This document shows, piece after piece, positions 17,609-28,849 of a stretch of 64,000 nucleotides of DNA. This DNA comes from Microbulbifer sp. HZ11. GTDB taxonomy: Bacteria > Pseudomonadota > Gammaproteobacteria > Pseudomonadales > Cellvibrionaceae. Each line of letters begins with the position of its first letter. Within the stretch, counting starts at the first letter, position 1. The translations under genes and the position numbers were made by a program. The notes under the pieces were generated by a model. The model did no database searches. It worked only from the letters and a program-made list of their open reading frames with translations, and had not been told where the DNA came from. The stretch covers positions 62,001 through 126,000 of the forward strand of contig NZ_JELR01000002.1 of NCBI RefSeq assembly GCF_000708675.1, given 5' to 3'.

Positions 17609-17766
17609 ATGTCCTCACTTCAGGTTTTTTTCCTGATTAGCCCGCATAAAAAAAATAATGGCGTTTCACACCTCGAGTCTGTGACCAAGCGTTCACCTAT
17701 TTATTGTATAACCCGGGGCACCGGCACATAGCACGGTATTTCGAACACCAACCCAGGAATACATAC

Positions 17767-19287
17767 ATGAAAATAGGGATGTTACTCCGTGCAGTGCTTT
17801 GCGGCACCGCACTGGCTTTTTGCGCTTTAAATACCCAGGCCCAACCCACTACGCCACCGCCAGTGGATCTCGATAATGGCAACGCCGCAATTGAAGCGGT
17901 TATTCCATACGTCGCTCCGGTCACATTTGAGTACGTCTCCGCCACCGGCGGCGACGCCACCCTGGTGCTGCGGATCACCACCCAGATAACCAACGCCTGG
18001 TTTGATGCCAGCGCCCCCTACCATCCCACTGCAGTGGGTGTTTACTCACGACTCGGGCGGCGCCCGGCGAACGAATCGGCAAACAACCGCAACATCAATA
18101 TCGCACTGCTGTTCGCCAGTTATCGGGTTCTGAACACCTTGCTGCCGCTGCAACACGCGACCTGGCGCGCCATGCTGGAAGCACAGGGATTGGACCCGGA
18201 CGATAACAGCACAGACCTCACTAGCCCTATCGGCATTGGCAATGCCGCCGGTGCGGCCGTTGCCAAGGGGCGACTGCGGGATGGCATGAACCAGGTGGGC
18301 GATGAAACCCGATCGGGCCCCCTGCGCGCAGCCAACCCAATGCCCTATATGGATTACACAGGCTACCAGCCGATCAATACCGCCTATACCCTCTTCAACC
18401 CGTCCCGCTGGCAGCCGGATATTCAGCGTAAGGGGATGGGCCTGTATAAAATCCAGCAGTTTGTCACCCCACAATATGCATTGACCGAACCTTACTCATA
18501 CAAGTCGCCGCGCAAATACCGCGCCCTTCCGCCGTTCGCGAGCTTCCACTGGAACTTTGCCGCCTACAAACAGCAAGCGGACGAGGTTCTCGCCGCATCA
18601 GCCAACCTCACTGATGAACAAAAGCTGATGGCAGAACTGTTCGATAACAAAATCGAATCTCTGGGGTTCTCCGCAGGGTTTGCCGCACTGTCACAGGGAC
18701 TCAGCTTAATGGAGTTTATCCATTTCGACTTCCTGACCAACATGGCCGCCCATGACGCAGGCATTTTTGTGTGGCAGGAGAAGCGCCGCTACGATGCCGT
18801 GCGTCCGTTCAGCGCCATTCAATATATTTACGGCAAGCAGCCAGTCACCGCCTGGGGTGGTCCGGGGCAAGGCACTCAGAGCATTCCTGCGAACACCTGG
18901 AAGTCTTACCTGGAAGAGGCCGACCATCCCGAGTACCCCTCTGCGTCTACATGCTTTTGCACCGCCCATGCGCAGTCCGCGCGGCAGTACTTGGGCAGCG
19001 ACGCGCTGAACTGGAGTGTCCCCTACACCGCAGGGTCTTCCCGTATCGAGCCTGGGGTCACCCCCGCCAATGATATGACCCTGAAATTCCCTACCTGGAC
19101 GTCCCTGGAAGAGAACTGTGGTCAGAGCCGGGTATGGGCAGGCGTACACTTCCAGGCCGCTGTCGATGAAGGACGTCGCATCTGCGGTGTATTCGGAGAC
19201 AATGCCTACAACTACCTACAGACTTTGGTTGCAGGTACTGCGCCGGAGCGGGAGCCGGCTGATAGACTGCGCGGGCGCCGTAAGTAA
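17767..19287 (+). CDS. Secreted vanadium-haloperoxidase/PAP2-superfamily protein
   Basis: 506-aa exported protein with a clear signal peptide (MKIGMLLRAVLCGTALAFCA...TQAQ, cleavage near residue 26). The C-terminal half has PAP2/vanadium-haloperoxidase phosphate-site signatures in order: KRRYDAVRP (K-x6-RP, from residue 339), PSAS in EYPSASTCFC (residue 391), and SRVWAGVHFQAAVD (SR-x5-H, from residue 454). The middle motif is normally PSGH; here the Gly and His are replaced by Ala and Ser. It could therefore be a haloperoxidase relative, a phosphatase-like protein or a degenerate member. The ATG at 17767 is chosen over an in-frame start 21 codons upstream because it begins the signal peptide and has AGGAA before it. 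It stands alone between gltA and the hemerythrin operon. Confidence 0.75.
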   Translation: MKIGMLLRAVLCGTALAFCALNTQAQPTTPPPVDLDNGNAAIEAVIPYVAPVTFEYVSATGGDATLVLRITTQITNAWFDASAPYHPTAVGVYSRLGRRPANESANNRNINIALLFASYRVLNTLLPLQHATWRAMLEAQGLDPDDNSTDLTSPIGIGNAAGAAVAKGRLRDGMNQVGDETRSGPLRAANPMPYMDYTGYQPINTAYTLFNPSRWQPDIQRKGMGLYKIQQFVTPQYALTEPYSYKSPRKYRALPPFASFHWNFAAYKQQADEVLAASANLTDEQKLMAELFDNKIESLGFSAGFAALSQGLSLMEFIHFDFLTNMAAHDAGIFVWQEKRRYDAVRPFSAIQYIYGKQPVTAWGGPGQGTQSIPANTWKSYLEEADHPEYPSASTCFCTAHAQSARQYLGSDALNWSVPYTAGSSRIEPGVTPANDMTLKFPTWTSLEENCGQSRVWAGVHFQAAVDEGRRICGVFGDNAYNYLQTLVAGTAPEREPADRLRGRRK

Positions 19288-19440: not shown

Positions 19441-19456
19441 TGTGACGAGCCTCACA
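19441..19456. promoter_or_regulatory. CRP/Vfr-type binding site
   Basis: TGTGACGAGCCTCACA is a perfect TGTGA-N6-TCACA palindrome. It is centred about 144 bp upstream of the hemerythrin-like gene. It suggests cAMP-CRP (Vfr) control of the redox operon; a CRP/FNR-family paralogue is also possible. Confidence 0.55.
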
Positions 19457-19592: not shown

Positions 19593-20093
19593 ATGTTCCG
19601 ACTCTTTTCCAACAAGTCCCGCGATACCGACAAAGAGCAGGATAGTAGCAGTAATAGTCGGCGCACGATCAAGTACGATCCCTCACTTATTCTGGCCCTG
19701 AAAAACGACCACCACGAGTTGATCAACATCTATCAGCGCATATGGTCGGAAGGATACGAGCAACAGAACTATCGCAAACTCTCGGAACTACTTGGGGTCT
19801 TCAAGTCGACATTCCAGGCGCATCTGATTAAAGAAAACGTCAGCTTCTATGTGTACCTTGAACAATCCCTTGCCGAGGATCGTCACACGCTCCAGATCGT
19901 CAAGGACTTCCGCACCGATATGAACGATATCGCGAATGCGGTAGTCCAGTTCTGCAAACGTTATTCGCGGGATAATCTCACTCGTGAAGACCTGGTTCGG
20001 TTTAAAGGGGAGTACGAGAAGATTGGTGAAGCACTCACCCGCCGGGTATCGCTAGAGGAAAAAGAACTTTACACCTTATACAACCCAAACTGA
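19593..20093 (+). CDS. Hemerythrin-like HHE-domain protein
   Basis: 166-aa soluble, mostly helical protein. Candidate di-iron ligands fit the hemerythrin pattern: His40/His41 in KNDHHELI, His77 and Glu81 in AHLIKE (HxxxE), and acidic residues near the C-terminus (EEKELY). Proteins of this family bind O2 or NO or act as redox sensors. Similar small HHE proteins with a polar N-terminal tail accompany regulators and respiratory genes. The ATG at 19593 is preferred because the homologous part starts soon after it; the in-frame alternative at 19539 adds 18 low-complexity residues. It precedes the FAD/BFD/membrane oxidoreductase gene by 169 bp on the same strand, so shared function is likely but co-transcription is unproven. 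Confidence 0.75.
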   Translation: MFRLFSNKSRDTDKEQDSSSNSRRTIKYDPSLILALKNDHHELINIYQRIWSEGYEQQNYRKLSELLGVFKSTFQAHLIKENVSFYVYLEQSLAEDRHTLQIVKDFRTDMNDIANAVVQFCKRYSRDNLTREDLVRFKGEYEKIGEALTRRVSLEEKELYTLYNPN

Positions 20094-20128
20094 CAGGCCG
20101 ATTACCAGTAGTCTGGCAGTAGCTTTTC

Positions 20129-20146
20129 AGGAGTATGCTCACTCCT
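20129..20146 (+). terminator. Weak hairpin between the hemerythrin gene and the oxidoreductase
   Basis: 6-bp stem AGGAGT/ACTCCT with a 6-nt loop and only TT after it. It may attenuate read-through; it is not a strong terminator. Confidence 0.3.
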
Positions 20147-20206
20147 TTAGGGTAGATCAGGGACGATCAACCCAGCACAACTAAAACAATAACAACGGGT
20201 AAAGAC

Positions 20207-20266
20207 ATGGCTCGAGGTATGGCTTCACTGAGTGAAGCGAAGAACTACTCGGGAGGCGAACCGTGA
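20207..20266 (+). CDS. Possible 19-aa leader peptide overlapping the oxidoreductase start
   Basis: ATG at 20207 opens a 19-codon frame whose TGA overlaps the GTG start of the next gene (GTGA). The short peptide MARGMASLSEAKNYSGGEP has no family I know. Its interest lies only in the overlap, which is typical of translational coupling. It could equally be chance. Confidence 0.25.
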   Translation: MARGMASLSEAKNYSGGEP

Positions 20267-22293
20267 CTAATAACCTTCCAGAACTTGATCACGAGCAACA
20301 TCCGCTCGAGGTAGGTAAGCCGTTTTCTGAAACGCAGGGCTACCAGACTTTTGTCGTTGTCGGAGCGGGGCCGGTCGGTGTTCGTTGCGCGCAGCGTTTG
20401 CTCGAATACAGTAGCGATGCTCAGGTCGTACTGATCGGGGGCGAAGACACTCAGCCATATAATCGTGTGCGCCTGTCTCAGTATCTGGCGGACAACCTGG
20501 AGTCGTCCGAGCTGGACAACCCCGTCTCTCGTGAACCCCATCCACGTCTCGCAGAGTTTTACGGTCGCAATATTGTCGAAATCGACAGAACACGAAAGCT
20601 TCTGATAGATCGAGACGGACAGCACCAACCCTACAGCAAGCTCATACTGGCAACCGGGTCAACACCGATCTTGCCGGAACTTCCAGGCATTGGGCTGAAA
20701 AATGTCGTCGGGTTCCGCAACCTTCAAGATGCACGTGACCTGATCAAGTTACGAGAAACGGTGCAAACCTTCGTTGTTGTTGGTGCCGGAGCCCTCGGAC
20801 TGGAGGCCGCCGCTGCGCTCAAAACCAGTAATAATCGTGTGGTACTGCTGGCGCGGAGAGGGCTGTTGGGAAATCGCCTCTCCAGCACTGCCAATAGCTA
20901 CTTGAGCGCCGCTCTTTGTGCACTGCAGGTTGAAGTAATCGAAGGCGTCGGACTGGTCGGCTGTTCTGGCAGCCACGCTGTGGAACAGATTAACCTGTCA
21001 GATGGCAGCAGCCTAAGCACCGACTGTGTGGTTCTCTGCACTGGGATCAACCCGGAAACTACCCTTGCTACCCGATCGGGACTCGACACTAAGCGCGGCA
21101 TCCTGGTTTCTCCCTATATGCAAACCAGTGACCCGGACATTTATGCGGTGGGGGAATGCGCTGAGTATGACGAGCAGCTTTATCAGTTGGTACGCCCTGG
21201 GTTTGAGCAGGCTGAAATTTGCAGCAGACATATCTGCGCAACCACAGAACAAGCCAGGAATGCGCCGTCGTATCACGGCAGCCGCAACGATATCCAACTG
21301 AAGATTTCCCATATTCCGTGCCTCGTGATCGGGGAAACCGAACCAGACAATCTGCAGGAGGTCCAGGTAGACACCTTTGAAAACCGCTTCAAGGGTCATT
21401 ACCGGGAGCTGTATGTGCGCAATGGCCGGCTTATAGGCGCGGTCATGGTGGGGAGCTGGGATGAGTCACACTTACTGAAGCAGGCCATCGAAGATGGTGC
21501 CAGTGTCAGCGAGCGACAACTGGCAAATTTCCGCGAGCATGGCAATCTCTGGCAGAAAGCTGCCGTGCAGACCATCAAGCAACAGCCTGACAACTATCTG
21601 GTCTGTCAGTGTAATGGTGTAAGTAAAGGGGAGCTCTGCGGCGTAATCGCCCGTGGCAAGCGCACCCTGCAGGACTTGGAGCTGGAGACCAATGCTGGCT
21701 CGGCCTGTGGCAGTTGCCGTCCGCTGATGGCCGAACTGTTGGATATTCCGGCACCAAACCTGGTGATGCGCCACGCACGCGGTATTCTGATTATCTCGAT
21801 ACTTTCCCTCATTCTGATAGCCATTGCGGTAATCGCTCCTCCCCCACCCATTTCCGACAGTGTGCAGGTCAGCTGGTATCTGAAAAAAATCTGGTATGAC
21901 AGTTTCTGGAAACAGGTCAGTGGCTATACCTTGCTGACACTTTGCCTGTTGACGGCGAGCCTTTCGATGCGCAAACGCCTGCAGAGCATCAACCTGGGGC
22001 ACCTCGACCACTGGCGCTATCTCCACAGTGTTATCGGTTTCGCAGCACTGCTTGTTCTATTGGTACATACCGGGTTTCGCCTGGGAGAAAATCTGAATCT
22101 GGTGTTGATGCTGGTATTTCTTGCCGCCACCTGTACCGGCTCCCTGGTAGGCGTATTCATGGCCCGCAATCACCATTGGACGGACCTGAAACTGCGCGAA
22201 CACCGCAAGTGGTGGTCAAGAGTCCATTACGCGTTGCTCTGGACCCTGCCGGTTTTGCTTTTCTATCATATTTTCGCCGTGTATTACTTCTAG
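20263..22293 (+). CDS. Fused NAD(P)H/FAD oxidoreductase, BFD [2Fe-2S] and dihaem-b-type membrane protein
   Basis: 676-aa three-part fusion. Residues 25-330 are a NirB-like pyridine-nucleotide-disulfide oxidoreductase with two Rossmann motifs (FVVVGAGPVG for FAD and FVVVGAGALG for NAD(P)H). Residues 445-490 are a BFD-like [2Fe-2S] domain with Cys448, Cys450, Cys482 and Cys485 (CxC-x31-CxxC). Residues 505-676 form a membrane domain of about five helices. Two of these helices each carry a His pair 14 apart (His588/His602 and His655/His669), the geometry of two stacked b haems in ferric-reductase/NOX-type bundles. It lacks the sirohaem domain of nitrite reductase. Inferred role: move electrons from cytoplasmic NAD(P)H through FAD and [2Fe-2S] into membrane haems. 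GTG at 20263 has GGGAGG upstream. The cytochrome gene starts directly after its stop. Confidence 0.8.
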   Translation: MTNNLPELDHEQHPLEVGKPFSETQGYQTFVVVGAGPVGVRCAQRLLEYSSDAQVVLIGGEDTQPYNRVRLSQYLADNLESSELDNPVSREPHPRLAEFYGRNIVEIDRTRKLLIDRDGQHQPYSKLILATGSTPILPELPGIGLKNVVGFRNLQDARDLIKLRETVQTFVVVGAGALGLEAAAALKTSNNRVVLLARRGLLGNRLSSTANSYLSAALCALQVEVIEGVGLVGCSGSHAVEQINLSDGSSLSTDCVVLCTGINPETTLATRSGLDTKRGILVSPYMQTSDPDIYAVGECAEYDEQLYQLVRPGFEQAEICSRHICATTEQARNAPSYHGSRNDIQLKISHIPCLVIGETEPDNLQEVQVDTFENRFKGHYRELYVRNGRLIGAVMVGSWDESHLLKQAIEDGASVSERQLANFREHGNLWQKAAVQTIKQQPDNYLVCQCNGVSKGELCGVIARGKRTLQDLELETNAGSACGSCRPLMAELLDIPAPNLVMRHARGILIISILSLILIAIAVIAPPPPISDSVQVSWYLKKIWYDSFWKQVSGYTLLTLCLLTASLSMRKRLQSINLGHLDHWRYLHSVIGFAALLVLLVHTGFRLGENLNLVLMLVFLAATCTGSLVGVFMARNHHWTDLKLREHRKWWSRVHYALLWTLPVLLFYHIFAVYYF

Positions 22294-23640
22294 ATGAAAA
22301 ATTATAAATTCAAATTCTGGCACTACGGCTTGATGGTCACTCTCGCTGCGGCAGTGTTGATCACCTACAACCTCCAGGCTGACGACAAATCGTTTTTTCT
22401 CAGTGGCGAGGTCACCCATGGGCACCATCAGATCGAAATGGCCTGTTCTACCTGTCACGGTGATGGTTTTGCTGGACAGAAATTTATTCAGAACGCCTGC
22501 TTGGGTTGTCACCAGGAAGAGCTGATCCAGGCAAACGATAGCCATCCCCGCAGTAAGTTTCTGGATCCGCGCAACGCCGGCCTACTGGCACACCTGGATG
22601 CACGCCAGTGTATTTCCTGTCACACCGAGCACAAACCTGAAATCACCCATGAGATGGGCGTGTCTCTTGCGGGAGATTTTTGTTTCCACTGCCATAGTGA
22701 TATCGCCGAAAACCGACCCAACCATTCCGGTCTGGGTTTTGAAACCTGTGCCAGCGCTGGTTGCCATAATTATCACGATAACCGTTACCTGTACGAGGAA
22801 TTCCTTGCTTCGCGCATTGACAGCCCGGCATTGATTCCCGGAGGCCAGCTGCCGATGAGGTCACTTGTACTCAAATGGCAGGCTGAAGACGCCGACGGCC
22901 TCGCGCTCAGCGCAACCGATGCCGACTTCCCTGTGGATGTTGCCAATTCACAGCAGGGTGTATCGCTTGCGTCTGCCACCCAGGCCTGGGGCAATTCAGC
23001 CCACGCGCATTCCGGGACCAACTGCAGTGCCTGTCACCAAAACGGAGGGACAGGGATGGAGACGGCAGTCGTCGTGGAGAGCTGTGGCGACTGCCACAGC
23101 AGCCAGCTCGCACAGTTCACCCGCGGCAAGCACGGCATGCGGCTTTCTGCGGACCTTCCACAATCACTCCCCATGAATGTTCAGGAAGCGAAACTGCCAA
23201 TGCACCCCCACGCCATCGAATTGGCGAAGGAACTGAGCTGCACCAGTTGCCATAACCCCCATGATCTCGATACCCGTGTTGCCTCGGTGGAGGCCTGCCT
23301 GGGCTGTCACAACGACACTCATAGCCTGGCGTACCAGGAATCACAGCACTTCCGTCTCTGGAGTGACCAGCAGTCGGGTGGCGTCAGCTGTGCAAATTGT
23401 CATATGCCAAGGGAAGAGCATGATGGGCAGATTCTGGTAAATCACAACCAGAATCATAACCTGCGTCCAAATGAAAAAATGTTGCCGGTGTGCCTGAGCT
23501 GTCACGGTGTTGAATTCGCTGTGGCCGCATTGGCGGACAAGGCATTGATTGAGAATAATTTTTCCGACGCGCCAGCAATGGAACACAAGACTTTCGAGCT
23601 GATTCGCGAGCGTATAGCCCGGATTAAAACCACTCAGTAA
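22294..23640 (+). CDS. Membrane-anchored multihaem (11-haem) cytochrome c
   Basis: 448 aa. An N-terminal hydrophobic segment (about residues 10-28) acts as signal/anchor, so the rest is periplasmic. I count ten CxxCH motifs (CSTCH, CLGCH, CISCH, CFHCH, CSACH, CGDCH, CTSCH, CLGCH, CANCH, CLSCH) and one expanded CASAGCH (CX4CH), giving eleven probable c-haems. Many additional His residues are available as distal ligands. It resembles doubled-CxxCH and cytochrome c3-type families more than NrfA or NapC; I cannot place it in a named subfamily. Its ATG follows the stop codon of the oxidoreductase with no spacer, implying tight coupling. It is the natural periplasmic electron acceptor of that membrane protein. 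Confidence 0.82.
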   Translation: MKNYKFKFWHYGLMVTLAAAVLITYNLQADDKSFFLSGEVTHGHHQIEMACSTCHGDGFAGQKFIQNACLGCHQEELIQANDSHPRSKFLDPRNAGLLAHLDARQCISCHTEHKPEITHEMGVSLAGDFCFHCHSDIAENRPNHSGLGFETCASAGCHNYHDNRYLYEEFLASRIDSPALIPGGQLPMRSLVLKWQAEDADGLALSATDADFPVDVANSQQGVSLASATQAWGNSAHAHSGTNCSACHQNGGTGMETAVVVESCGDCHSSQLAQFTRGKHGMRLSADLPQSLPMNVQEAKLPMHPHAIELAKELSCTSCHNPHDLDTRVASVEACLGCHNDTHSLAYQESQHFRLWSDQQSGGVSCANCHMPREEHDGQILVNHNQNHNLRPNEKMLPVCLSCHGVEFAVAALADKALIENNFSDAPAMEHKTFELIRERIARIKTTQ

Positions 23641-23658
23641 TCCCATCAGGAGGGGAAC

Positions 23659-24207
23659 ATGCGTAGTCTCATTTCCATCGTTATTTCAGCCGCCCTTTTA
23701 TCAGGCTGTGGAGAAAAAAGTGGTATCGCACCGGAAAGAATGGCGGATGCCATTTTTGCTGTTATCGAGGCAGACAGAGCCAGCTACACCAACTATGTAG
23801 TGAATCGCCTCGCCAATGAGGAAAAGGTTATTAAAGCGGAGGAGCACTGGAAGGACAGTAAAGCACTACCACTCCCCGCGCAAATGATGCGCATGGGTGC
23901 CGAGCGTGTGGCGGAACAGGAATCAGGTTTCAACTATGCTCTGCTATCTGAATGGGCGATCAATAAACAGAACAAGCCTCGCACGGAACTGGAACAACAG
24001 GGCCTGGAGTTTATCAATGAGAACCCCGGGCAGAATTTCTACGGCACCGAAACCCTGGGTGACACCGAGTATTTCACTGCCATATACCCTGACGTCGCCG
24101 TATCCCCGGCCTGTGTCAGTTGCCACAATGAGCATGTCGACAGTCCTCGCACCGATTTCGAGATTGGCGACACTATGGGCGGCGTTGTTATTCGATTCCC
24201 GCTCTGA
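23659..24207 (+). CDS. DUF3365-type mono-haem c lipoprotein
   Basis: 182 aa. The N-terminus MRSLISIVISAALLSGC is a lipoprotein signal with lipobox LLSGC, Cys17. The body matches the DUF3365/Tll0287-like haem domain, with a single CVSCH motif near residue 153 and the end TMGGVVIRFPL. The same fold occurs as a sensor or redox domain. It is probably anchored in a membrane facing the periplasm. It starts 18 bp after the 11-haem cytochrome with a strong AGGAGGGG ribosome-binding site, and is the last gene of the redox operon. It could be an electron carrier or a redox sensor for the chain. Confidence 0.78.
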   Translation: MRSLISIVISAALLSGCGEKSGIAPERMADAIFAVIEADRASYTNYVVNRLANEEKVIKAEEHWKDSKALPLPAQMMRMGAERVAEQESGFNYALLSEWAINKQNKPRTELEQQGLEFINENPGQNFYGTETLGDTEYFTAIYPDVAVSPACVSCHNEHVDSPRTDFEIGDTMGGVVIRFPL

Positions 24208-24291: not shown

Positions 24292-25869
24292 TCACGGCAG
24301 GTTGTGCACGTGGCTACCTACGGGCCCGGAGAAAATACCCCCGTCGTGCATATCCCAGTTAATGGACCAGGTCATAACGCCATTGAAGGTCGGGTATGAC
24401 TGTGACGGTGTGAGTGTGTCACAGTTCAGCTGCTGGGTCAGGCAATCCAGGGCGCGGTTAATATCCGCTGGCGTTGCATGGCCACTGCCCGCTGCACTGG
24501 GACCGGATGGCAGTGCAAGTCCAACCTGATCCGGACGCAAGCCTTCAAAGAATCCCGCATCACCATATCCCAGGGGAAATCCTTCGATCAGCATCAACGC
24601 TGAGGCCACCATCATATCCACGGTACCAGCCGCATAGGCCTGGCCGCGATAGGGAGTTGCGAGACCGCCGTTGTTGTACAGCTGCACATGCAGTAGATCC
24701 AGGTCGTCGCGCAGCTGGTCAATCATGGGTAGGTATGCCCCCCAGATTCCGGTATAGGAGACGTAGCCACCCTGAACATAGGGATGCTCCGGCGCCATGG
24801 ACAGGTACATTCCGGGATAACGCTGCTTCAACTGTTTGACCGCATTGACCATATTCTGGATCACCGGAGCACCATGCATGACACCGGCACCGGACTCCAG
24901 ATCAATATCGATTCCATCAAAGCCATACTCATCAATCATCGCCGCGGTGCTGTTGACGAAGTTGGTGACGTTTTCTTCGGTGTTGAGGGTCACGGTGCCC
25001 TTCTCACCACCGTAGGATGCGATCACTATTTTCCCTGCGGCACGCTTGGCGGCAATGTCGGCAATAAACTGCTGCTTATCGAGGCCCGGATCGAGGTTGA
25101 ATTCGATACTGCCATTGCCCGCGTCGTCAACAAAAGCCACCACAATCACGTCCCAGACATCAGAAACCTCACTAATACGGTACAAACCGGATCCGTTGTC
25201 AAAATTGTGCCAGTAACCCACTAGCGCATGTTTCGGCAGCAGGCCACTGTTCCCCCCTGAAGAGCTGCCACCGGACGAACCGCTGGAACTGGATGACGAG
25301 CTCGAGCCACCACTGGATGAACTACTGGAAGATGAGGAGCTACCGCAGTCACCGACCTGGCTCCAGGCGTCCTGCCAGTGCGCACCCACCCCGGGCTCAT
25401 AGGCCCAGGCGGCACTGGAAGAACACCACCCGGCAATGTTGCACTGAAATTCCAGACCAACATTCTGCACCAGTTGGCCCGCGGTGTAGCTGGTACCCGC
25501 CACGTACTCTATAGAGGTACAGGATCCGCCGCCGGATCCACCGCTGGAGCTCGATGAAGAGCTGGAAGAAGAACTCGATGACGAAGAACTGGAGGAGCTG
25601 GATGAGGAACTTGACGAAGAGCTGGATGAGGACGAGCCGCCATCACAGGCACCGTCGTAAGCCCACACATCCCAAGTACCTGAGTGGGTCGCCGGATTTT
25701 CGTTTTGTGTCCACCATTTGGCGGTATAGGCGTTGCCCAGGTGCTGAACCGAATCGTCTCCTACATAAATACCGGCACTCTGCCAATCCGGTCGCGCACT
25801 ACAGTCTACTGCCGCGGCCTCGATCGAAAACAACCCGAGCGCAAGCAGGCTCATTAATTGCCTTTTCAT
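24292..25869 (-). CDS. Secreted GH18 chitinase with two small chitin-binding modules and poly-Ser linkers
   Basis: 525 aa. A signal peptide ends near AAAVDC (about 21). Residues 22-76 are a CBM5/12-like module (AKWWTQNENPA). Residues 79-109 are an uninterrupted run of 31 serines. Residues 117-176 are a second carbohydrate-binding module (CSSSAAWAYEPGVGAHWQDAW). Residues 177-206 are a Ser/Gly linker. The GH18 catalytic domain runs from about 210 to the end, with DGIDIDLE giving the catalytic acid Glu325. The substrate-assisted mechanism of the family and the linker style typical of Cellvibrionales secreted hydrolases support an extracellular chitinase. Compared with its larger neighbour it has a GH18 domain of ChiD/bacterial class type with a compact barrel. 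Confidence 0.92.
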   Translation of the reverse strand: MKRQLMSLLALGLFSIEAAAVDCSARPDWQSAGIYVGDDSVQHLGNAYTAKWWTQNENPATHSGTWDVWAYDGACDGGSSSSSSSSSSSSSSSSSSSSSSSSSSSSSSSGGSGGGSCTSIEYVAGTSYTAGQLVQNVGLEFQCNIAGWCSSSAAWAYEPGVGAHWQDAWSQVGDCGSSSSSSSSSSGGSSSSSSSSGSSGGSSSGGNSGLLPKHALVGYWHNFDNGSGLYRISEVSDVWDVIVVAFVDDAGNGSIEFNLDPGLDKQQFIADIAAKRAAGKIVIASYGGEKGTVTLNTEENVTNFVNSTAAMIDEYGFDGIDIDLESGAGVMHGAPVIQNMVNAVKQLKQRYPGMYLSMAPEHPYVQGGYVSYTGIWGAYLPMIDQLRDDLDLLHVQLYNNGGLATPYRGQAYAAGTVDMMVASALMLIEGFPLGYGDAGFFEGLRPDQVGLALPSGPSAAGSGHATPADINRALDCLTQQLNCDTLTPSQSYPTFNGVMTWSINWDMHDGGIFSGPVGSHVHNLP

Positions 25870-25921
25870 AGCGTTTTCCTAAGTTATTTTTGGAAGGTTT
25901 GCTTACACAGACATCGAAAAG

Positions 25922-25949
25922 AACAGAGGGCGCCGTGGCGCCCTCTGTT
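25922..25949. terminator. Terminator between the two chitinase genes
   Basis: 13-bp stem AACAGAGGGCGCC and its complement with a tight loop. On the minus strand it is followed by C and TTTT, suitable for ending the transcript of the larger chitinase gene. Confidence 0.8.
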
Positions 25950-25963
25950 TACAGCTTTAACAC

Positions 25964-28849
<2,886 letters not shown>

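Follow-up and report, generated by a model that had tools for sequence, protein, structure and literature searches.

I found that three adjacent genes of Microbulbifer sp. HZ11, here called FUS, CYT, and LIP, form a real conserved unit, which is well supported. They may encode a transmembrane electron module, running from NAD(P)H to the periplasm, that serves in defence against nitric oxide (NO) and other nitrogen oxides; I give this reading about an even chance, and the NO role is suggested by the neighbouring genes.

The conserved unit and its exchangeable neighbours

The genes lie on the plus strand of the window, that is, the whole 64,000-nucleotide stretch of DNA that was analysed. FUS (20263-22293; 676 amino acids, GTG start) encodes an NAD(P)H/FAD oxidoreductase with a [2Fe-2S] domain and a di-haem-b-type membrane domain. 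CYT (22294-23640; 448 amino acids) encodes an undecahaem cytochrome c, whose N-terminal helix (residues 2-28) is an anchor or an uncleaved signal, and LIP (23659-24207; 182 amino acids) encodes a Tll0287/DUF3365 (sCache_heme) haem lipoprotein, whose lipobox cysteine (Cys17) was read by eye. They are preceded by HEM (19593-20093, plus strand; 166 amino acids), the gene of a hemerythrin-domain protein with no recognised signal peptide. All four ORFs were found consecutively on this strand, as the initial annotation had it, and Pfam confirmed the identities of the four proteins. Its observation is confirmed, and its interpretation is partly supported.

Is the arrangement conserved? In a sample of 100 genomes of the family, FUS, CYT, and LIP are adjacent at all 24 loci with a full-length fusion (the window and 23 fetched loci). 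A locus outside the family and in another class (L077) also has CYT and LIP, together with a FUS variant carrying an FNR insert. The same was seen from the side of the cytochrome. At the loci of the best 80 of 463 CYT relatives, which cover about eight phyla, CYT is directly adjoined in 80/80 cases by an ORF with a membrane domain of the FUS type, this ORF also matches the flavin/BFD profile in 76, and LIP lies within -6/+4 kb in 78. Carriers known by name among the 463 include Cerasicoccus frondis, Sedimenticola hydrogenitrophicus, and Polyangium fumosum. Across the phylum sample, matches to CYT and strong matches to the membrane domain occur in the same three genomes, and no relative was found in the viral contigs. 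Short, weak membrane matches in the family and phylum searches (including G055 and G068) were excluded from the fusion count. Three of these matches (L078, L079, and L080) are a different cytochrome-b-like protein adjoining other multihaem clusters. The recurring adjacency supports the proposal of one conserved transmembrane unit for FUS-CYT-LIP. No description of the trio was found in the literature searched, nor in the parts of PMC9230427 and PMC13322032 covered here, in agreement with the initial remark that no named system has this layout.

The unit that recurs generally is FUS-CYT-LIP, with HEM as a local partner. The HEM protein matches Hemerythrin (PF01814) with 34.7 bits against a cut-off of 25.3, and more weakly Rsd_AlgQ, below its cut-off; no relative with a solved structure was found. 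Its homologues occur in 12 of the 100 family genomes, exactly the 12 that have HEM at the FUS locus. In two genera, HEM is present in 12/12 genomes with FUS and in 0/5 without it (Fisher p 1.6e-4, a value that ignores kinship). Among the 24 family loci, 12 have HEM (the window counted), and the other 12 have a truncated globin, a class I cytochrome c, and a Fer2/FNR reductase. Thus, HEM and the truncated globin with its flavin reductase replace each other within the family. The latter pair resembles a split form of the flavohaemoglobin Hmp, in that a truncated globin and a FAD_binding_6/NAD_binding_1 reductase adjoin the module; they differ from Hmp in being separate proteins, in the extra Fer2 domain of the reductase (Pfam on 3 of the 12), and in that they were not found at HEM-type loci. 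At the 80 wider loci, a hemerythrin was found by profile only once. The four-gene unit first proposed was abandoned because hemerythrin is present at only half of the family loci and at this one wider locus.

A palindrome of the CRP/FNR-family type, TGTGA-N6-TCACA (19441-19456, no strand assigned), lies 5′ of the operon and is a possible promoter element. It is the sole exact match in the window, where 0.11 are expected, and at least one match arose in 11 of 100 shuffles. A matching dyad lies upstream of 4 of the 12 HEM-type loci (the window counted), two of them with other spacers, and is absent from the other eight.

Domains and haem ligands

The soluble part of FUS contains a FAD/NAD(P)H domain (Pyr_redox_2, residues 30-310; 20350-21192, plus strand; 168.2 bits), Rubredoxin_C (345-412), and a BFD-like [2Fe-2S] domain (Fer2_BFD, 446-494; 21598-21744, plus strand; 44.1 bits), all above the Pfam cut-offs. 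The BFD cysteines C448, C450, C482, and C485 are invariant in 82/82 aligned fusions. This alignment comprises 82 of 84 candidate fusions and was confined to lengths of 640-735 amino acids, with the near-duplicates L064 and L124 left out. With Pyr_redox_2, Fer2_BFD, and the four cysteines, FUS is a reductase module of the NirB type. It shares the domain order Pyr_redox_2, Rubredoxin_C, and BFD with the N-terminal half of NirB (TIGR02374; 305.6 bits over FUS residues 31-494), while the sirohaem half of NirB is swapped in FUS for a membrane cytochrome-b-like domain. A full NirB was rejected, since the score is below the cut-off of 578.35 and the match extends no further than position 466 in a profile of 794. 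The fold of the flavin domain is that of ferredoxin reductases (BphA4-type; best Foldseek E 6.2e-31), and the 50 Foldseek matches listed for FUS are all flavin-domain relatives, none being for the membrane fold.

The membrane domain (residues 503-676; 21769-22290, plus strand) has five helices in the AlphaFold2 model (505-524, 547-569, 581-603, 611-638, and 642-675), and H588/H655 and H602/H669 are its candidate haem ligands. The histidine pairs first noticed by their spacing of 14 residues, 588/602 and 655/669, each fall within one helix, the third and the fifth, respectively. They are not due to chance, since of the 10 histidines between residues 500 and 676 these four, and no others, are invariant in the 82 fusions. 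Transmembrane haem-b proteins of the NOX/FRE and cytochrome b561 types have two helices, each with two histidines 14 residues apart (13-14 in the NOX/FRE superfamily, where they pair across two haems). FUS agrees with them in this within-helix spacing only, its histidines being placed in helices and invariant. For its membrane part, Pfam gives only matches below the cut-offs, to DUF4405 at 15.1 bits and cytochrome b561 at 9.9 bits; Ferric_reduct is absent among the 24 Pfam rows for FUS (E up to 1), and no related PDB chain was found. Its flavin domain belongs to the NirB/BphA4 type rather than the FNR type. The likeness to ferric reductases and NOX claimed initially is one of histidine spacing only; neither Pfam nor the PDB gave a sequence match to these families.

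CYT belongs to Cytochrom_c3_2 and related multihaem families in Pfam. The count of 11 haems proved correct, with ten CXXCH motifs and one CX4CH motif (C152-H158; 22747-22767, plus strand). The CX4CH motif is present in 87/90 aligned relatives, and the remaining three have 11 CXXCH motifs instead. The alignment was confined to lengths of 430-500 amino acids and holds 90 of 95 such sequences (L064, L082, L124, L130, and L146 were left out). Besides the 11 haem motifs, exactly 11 further histidines are invariant (90/90). Since there is one invariant spare histidine per haem motif, CYT is read as a wire rather than a catalyst, and the pattern suits a chain in which all haems would have bis-histidine ligation. 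A cytochrome of this kind, with no obvious catalytic haem, counts against the NO-defence reading.

LIP is a Tll0287-like protein (PF11845, 67.4 bits against a cut-off of 24.1) with one CXXCH motif. In an alignment of 24 rows, this motif is invariant and the domain has no further conserved cysteine, leaving no conserved candidate for the Cys of the Cys/His axial ligation that marks the stand-alone Tll0287 type. Against the Tll0287 structure (5b82), there was no single-sequence match, and the profile match (E 1.2) is not strong enough for the axial ligand to be located. Since a conserved Cys ligand is absent, LIP is likeliest to provide the ligand-accessible haem of the module. The stand-alone sCache_heme/DUF3365 proteins described in the part of a preprint covered here (PMC12889525) are, like LIP, stand-alone forms of PF11845 with a covalent c haem motif. 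LIP and its relatives differ from these in having no conserved Cys ligand outside CXXCH and in being part, together with FUS and CYT, of a fixed trio.

Genomic context and a possible role

What is new here is the context: proteins that bind NO or O2, and nitrate-uptake genes, are often beside the trio, which suggests an unnamed defence against reactive nitrogen. The neighbours were counted by profile; an earlier, cruder count gave globins at 36/59 loci and nitrate genes at 18/49. Of the 56 loci flanked by at least 6 kb upstream and 4 kb downstream, 42 have a globin or hemerythrin nearby, and neither was detected by profile at the other 14. The density of single-domain globins is 0.071/kb near the locus and 0.0017/kb far from it, and that of class I cytochromes c is 0.047/kb and 0/kb, respectively. 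As a raw co-location count, genes of the nitrate-assimilation type occur in 21 of the 46 loci that extend 9 kb to both sides (at least two kinds in 16) and in 34/80 loci overall, the names of the transporters and nitrate reductases coming from Pfam or from NCBIfam matches that stay under the cut-off. Neither kind of neighbour is present at 17/80 loci, among them four of Poribacteria and three of Polyangium. No nitrate genes were found in the stretch read at the window locus; NirB of that genome lies elsewhere.

In two of the 80 loci (L093 and L099), a haem-NO-binding (H-NOX) domain is fused to FUS, and that of L093 aligns with entries named NO-binding sensors. An Rrf2 cluster is present in six loci, one representative being nearest to the NsrR model, below the cut-off. 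For one representative neighbour globin, the closest model is Hmp, also below the cut-off, and one representative neighbour NirB is above the cut-off of its model.

How might the module work? Electrons from NAD(P)H would enter the FAD of FUS and move on by way of the [2Fe-2S] BFD centre to a stack of two b haems spanning the membrane, the H588/H655 haem on the cytoplasmic side and the H602/H669 haem on the periplasmic side, and then to the 11 haems of CYT and to LIP. The module would serve against NO and related nitrogen oxides arising from nitrate/nitrite assimilation or coming from outside. Inside the cell, a cytoplasmic NO/O2-binding protein would handle NO: hemerythrin here, and elsewhere a single-domain globin, a truncated globin with its flavin reductase, or a fused H-NOX domain. 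In the periplasm, the CYT/LIP arm would supply electrons for reductive NO removal. What was observed is the adjacency of the genes, the domain make-up, the invariance of the ligand residues, and the association with the neighbours; the cofactor loading, the electron direction, NO as the substrate, and LIP as the terminal site I infer.

A functional precedent is the narK-bjgb-flp-nasC system of Bradyrhizobium. According to the part of PMC4724949 covered here, it places a FAD/NAD(P)H oxidoreductase (Flp) and a single-domain haemoglobin (Bjgb) among nitrate-assimilation genes under NasS-NasT control and copes with NO arising in nitrate assimilation, with the suggestion that Flp feeds both NasC and Bjgb. 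The oxidoreductase, globin, and nitrate genes are alike, but FUS has an extra [2Fe-2S]-linked membrane domain, the 11-haem cytochrome and the haem lipoprotein are added, and the globin is replaceable.

A more far-reaching version, which I regard as possible but hold only tentatively, is that the trio represents an undescribed, widely spread class of enzyme, namely a transmembrane NAD(P)H:undecahaem-cytochrome c oxidoreductase. It would run a periplasmic NO-reducing or N-oxide-scavenging shield, paired inside with the NO-binding protein of each lineage and often wired into nitrate assimilation. To my knowledge, it is poorly understood how nitrate-assimilating bacteria control NO at the periplasmic face of the inner membrane. 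If the reading is true, several hundred genomes (463 confirmed CYT relatives, 80 of them covered here) would share a dedicated electron route against NO whose parts match only general families. It would also be mechanistically unusual for one protein to link NAD(P)H to the c haems of the periplasm while bypassing the quinone pool. The recurrent exchange of unrelated NO/O2-binding folds next to one and the same trio makes for a sharp, testable prediction.

Further observations count against the preferred NO reading: the loci with neither globin nor hemerythrin, some of them also free of nitrate-type genes, the window locus with no nitrate genes in the stretch read, the O2 binding of globins and hemerythrins, the weak NO binding of the one stand-alone sCache_heme protein tested (PMC12889525, in the part covered here), and the lack of a significant anticorrelation with flavohaemoglobin. 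Flavohaemoglobin is present in 4/24 family genomes with FUS and 24/76 without it (p 0.20), and the idea that the module replaces it was dropped. NirB is above the cut-off in 24/24 and 65/76, respectively (p 0.06), which is uninformative since NirB is nearly universal in the family.

Alternative readings

In a reading linked to O2, FUS may be a NOX-like NAD(P)H oxidase or a redox valve, with the globin or hemerythrin supplying or sensing O2. Globins, whether truncated or not, and hemerythrins are O2-binding proteins, and many carriers of the module are aerobes. The sCache_heme proteins tested yield superoxide with O2, according to the part of PMC12889525 covered here. However, the H-NOX fusions, the Rrf2 cluster with its representative nearest to NsrR, and the nitrate-type genes point to nitrogen oxides, and I consider an O2-linked role unlikely.

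Electrons may also flow in reverse, from periplasmic donors or quinol through CYT and the haem-b domain, so that FUS hands them to a cytoplasmic assimilatory nitrate reductase or globin and spares NAD(P)H. The adjoining nitrate-assimilation-type genes agree with this, as does L083, whose membrane part follows a NarK-like transporter (285.5 bits against a cut-off of 311.7) and stands by itself. Yet the membrane ORF nearly always carries the flavin/BFD match, many loci show no nitrate genes, and transfer from c haems to centres at the NAD(P)H level is uphill without a drive, which makes this direction improbable. The role proposed for Flp, as described in the part of PMC4724949 covered here, is a point in its favour.

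Is CYT itself a periplasmic nitrite (or hydroxylamine) reductase for assimilation, like NrfA, ONR, or HAO? Its profile matches an eight-haem nitrite reductase at E 1.7e-10, the best stretch covering 70 positions (NrfA chains match more weakly), and HAO heads the Foldseek results. That fold match is not significant, however (best E 0.023, HAO-family TM-scores 0.14-0.31), and a catalyst of the HAO/NrfA kind was rejected. The catalytic-haem motif CXXCK of NrfA/ONR is found in 0/90 aligned sequences, there is one invariant spare histidine for each haem motif, and all 24 family genomes with FUS have NirB; a catalytic CYT is very improbable.

The context favours NO and other nitrogen oxides among the acceptors named initially, whereas nothing specific was seen for metals or extracellular acceptors, nor any evidence of respiration for the "respiratory" branch. 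Such a branch is very unlikely in spite of the multihaem c chain with its lipoprotein, a weak DmsE-family match (44 bits against 192.2), and an outer-membrane barrel (PF13372) in 9/80 loci: the barrel and outer-surface multihaem partner of Mtr/porin-cytochrome conduits were not seen among the ORFs adjoining the window operon, no second multihaem cluster is among the neighbour clusters occurring in at least 5 of the 80 loci, and the PF13372 barrel accompanies NrtA/NrtB/NasT-type genes in eight of its nine loci.

Gene cluster and conservation of its layout

As the initial annotation had claimed, the ORFs place four genes on one strand of the window (19593-24207, plus strand): HEM, a hemerythrin-domain protein of 166 aa; FUS, a fusion of 676 aa with FAD/NAD(P)H, Rubredoxin_C-like, BFD [2Fe-2S] and membrane parts; CYT, a cytochrome c of 448 aa; and LIP, a 182-aa lipoprotein that combines a PF11845 haem domain with a lipobox Cys (by eye). 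FUS and CYT abut (22293/22294), and LIP starts 18 bases after CYT. CYT does carry the 11 haem motifs ascribed to it, ten CXXCH and one CX4CH. All domains of the FUS-CYT-LIP trio are from known families, except for the membrane part, which has no Pfam family above the cut-off. No NCBIfam match was above the cut-off for FUS (best 25 of 72), CYT (5 matches) or LIP (a single match). The trio was not found as a named system in searches of an open-access paper collection, in agreement with the annotation. NAD(P)H-driven transmembrane haem electron transfer and NO handling tied to nitrate assimilation are kinds already known, and there is a fair chance that the module goes beyond them.

A 19-codon leader ORF (20207-20266) overlaps the GTG start of FUS as GTGA; it is near-identical in one related locus (L054), similar in another (L057), and not clear in the other loci compared. 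Between citrate synthase and HEM lies a vanadium-haloperoxidase-like protein (17758-19287; VCPO_2nd, DUF6851). Of the 23 family loci fetched, L054 alone was found to have a homologue. Downstream of the operon, two chitinase-like genes (named by eye) lie on the opposite strand (24292-28843, minus strand), the first with long polyserine linkers.

Is this layout common? The FUS membrane part, used as the query, matched 27 genomes among 100 from the family to which the window belongs, its own genome included; the full-length fusion is present in 24 of them, while the best match in the other three is short and weak. The fusion recurs with its neighbours: FUS, CYT and LIP adjoin in the same order in the window and in the 23 fetched family loci, and also in L077, a Magnetococcales record of another class with the same sequence as L082. 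Of 398 genomes sampled across the phylum, 16 match the membrane part, 13 of them weakly (E 1.5e-8 or worse). The three strong matches are the window, one congener already counted and the genome of L077, and CYT at E 1e-20 or better was found in these three alone of 396 genomes. In L077:19-1695, whose N-terminus is cut by the contig end, an FNR-type FAD/NAD module is inserted between BFD and the membrane domain. A related theme is seen in L078:8347-13572, L079:7076-11777 and L080:6101-12214, where a separate cytochrome-b-like protein (~280-300 aa) is encoded close to cytochromes of 10 to 21 haems and to a 4Fe-4S protein that has cNMP-binding and/or FAD domains.

For a wider view, a 13-row CYT alignment was run against one genome for each species, a search that is blind to fusions without CYT. 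It confirmed 463 CYT relatives, and the best 80, ranked by likeness to the first alignment row, are a non-random draw with several close kin. Their titles (phylum sorting is mine) include Pseudomonadota groups, Verrucomicrobia, Planctomycetes, Poribacteria, Myxococcales, Dadabacteria, Binatia and Bryobacterales. A membrane-domain ORF ends beside CYT in all of these best 80, and in 76 it also matches a flavin/BFD profile. As for the other four, L083 and L128 have short separate membrane ORFs, that of L139 has 290 aa and no Pfam family, and that of L094 is truncated at the contig end. In 78 of the same 80, LIP is found within -6/+4 kb; of the other two, the L130 locus runs off the contig, and in L095 LIP sits further upstream. 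The Polyangium fusions (L142:6128-9964; also L144 and L146) have about 1250-1300 aa, and L142, the one read, has a long proline/serine-rich stretch between BFD and the C-terminal membrane domain.

Predicted electron path

The His pairs singled out in the initial annotation, H588/H602 and H655/H669, are invariant in 82/82 aligned fusions (82 of 84 length-picked candidates); none of the other six His between residues 500 and 676 is. The same 82 fusions also all keep the four BFD cysteines. The AlphaFold2 model of FUS (mean pLDDT 88.8, pTM 0.67) has five long C-terminal helices, and each pair lies in one helix, as annotated (588/602 in 581-603; 655/669 in 642-675). The order of the helices, together with basic loops that follow helices 2 and 4 (judged by eye), suggests that helices 3 and 5 are parallel; on this topology, H588 and H655 would form the inner pair and H602 and H669 the outer one.

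Every one of the 90 aligned CYT sequences (90 of 95) retains the 11 haem motifs, as ten CXXCH and one CX4CH in 87 and as 11 CXXCH in 3; CXXCK was found in none of the 90. Exactly 11 further His are invariant (44, 84, 113, 144, 161, 237, 280, 323, 343, 352 and 384), the number of spare ligands that an all-bis-His wire of 11 haems would need. In the CYT model (mean pLDDT 83.7), residues 2-28 form an N-terminal helix, which may be an inner-membrane anchor or an uncleaved signal. Judging from the domain families, electrons would enter FUS from NAD(P)H via FAD to [2Fe-2S]; the invariant His and the gene adjacency suggest passage over two b haems of FUS to CYT.

Partner proteins and neighbouring genes

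HEM homologues occur in 12 of 100 family genomes, exactly the 12 with HEM at the FUS locus, and HEM is absent from five genomes of the same genus that lack FUS (Fisher p 1.6e-4 for HEM with FUS over 17 genomes of two genera, kinship ignored). The 12 HEM-less family loci all have, downstream, a class I cytochrome c, a truncated globin and a Fer2/FAD_binding_6/NAD_binding_1 reductase (Pfam on 3 of the 12 reductases). None of these three was found in the fetched stretch of 11 HEM loci, and the window's genome has no PF01152 match anywhere. In G003, a genome of the family sample, a second, distant HEM homologue (G003:C33:43920-44802; E 3.4e-14) is encoded apart from FUS, with about 100 bases between it and a gene for a truncated globin.

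In 2/80 loci, the methanotroph records of Crenothrix and Methylococcaceae (L093:7332-9914 and L099:1263-3854), an H-NOX (haem-NO-binding) domain is fused to the FUS N-terminus (HNOB 117.7 and 124.8 bits). The L093 domain can be aligned to bacterial H-NOX proteins of solved structure. Both seemingly have Phe at the putative site of the O2-stabilising distal Tyr. Four unrelated NO/O2-binding folds (hemerythrin, single-domain globin, truncated globin and H-NOX) thus partner one reductase, and this is the strongest clue to the function of the module.

Neighbour ORFs of the 80 loci were clustered, and one representative was named per cluster. Recurrent neighbours are a single-domain globin (PF00042; nearest NCBIfam model NO-inducible flavohaemoglobin, 63.6 bits, cut-off 432), a truncated globin (PF01152), a class I cytochrome c (PF13442), an NMT1_2 substrate-binding protein with an ABC permease (nearest nitrate permease, 160 bits, cut-off 209) and ATPase, an ANTAR regulator probably of the NasT type, an Rrf2 regulator (nearest NsrR, 136.5 bits, cut-off 182), a molybdenum reductase (nearest NasC, 811.8 bits, cut-off 1100) and NirB (958.7 bits, above cut-off). 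Because the other NCBIfam scores are below cut-off, the nitrate labels except NirB are given by nearest model, Pfam class and company.

In 56 loci the sequence reaches at least 6 kb upstream and 4 kb downstream; by profiles on all ORFs, 42 of these have a globin or hemerythrin nearby (36 single-domain globin, 5 truncated globin, 1 hemerythrin), and none was found in the other 14. The density is 0.071 per kb inside versus 0.0017 outside for the single-domain globin and 0.047 versus 0 for the class I cytochrome c, a contrast that is partly self-made because the profiles were built from the same loci, inside and outside members being equally eligible. Among the 46 loci flanked by 9 kb on each side, 21 carry one or more of the NrtA, NrtB, NasT, NirB and molybdenum-reductase types and 16 carry two or more, as raw, background-uncorrected counts. 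With a cruder tally of selected genes, the figures were 36/59 for globin and 18/49 for nitrate-type genes. Overall, 63/80 loci have globin/hemerythrin or nitrate-type genes and 17 have neither (short contigs included), L093 with its H-NOX fusion being among the 17. The window locus lies after citrate synthase, and the ORFs read around it include no nitrate genes. A PF13372 outer-membrane barrel, possibly a nitrate porin, lies near the module or nitrate-type genes in 9/80 loci (L087, on which Pfam was run, L119, L121, L126, L129, L131, L143, L159 and L160).

Putative role in NO defence

The neighbours point to NO/N-oxide defence as the purpose of the module, and there is a precedent: according to PMC4724949, the Bradyrhizobium flavoprotein Flp and single-domain haemoglobin Bjgb handle NO from nitrate assimilation and share one operon with NasC. 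Alternatively, the globins and hemerythrins near the module may serve O2. Against the NO role also stand the 14 well-flanked loci in which the profiles show no globin or hemerythrin, the absence of nitrate genes near the window's own module, and Hmp, which showed no significant inverse relation with FUS (4/24 vs 24/76 genomes).

LIP would be, as a guess, the reactive site. DUF3365 domains are sCache_heme proteins; in a preprint (PMC12889525), a signalling-type one binds NO tightly, and the sole stand-alone one tested there has weak NO binding and a Cys/His-ligated haem. In contrast to the latter, LIP relatives lack a conserved Cys ligand (24-row alignment), and thus the LIP-type haem may be more open than a Cys/His-ligated one.
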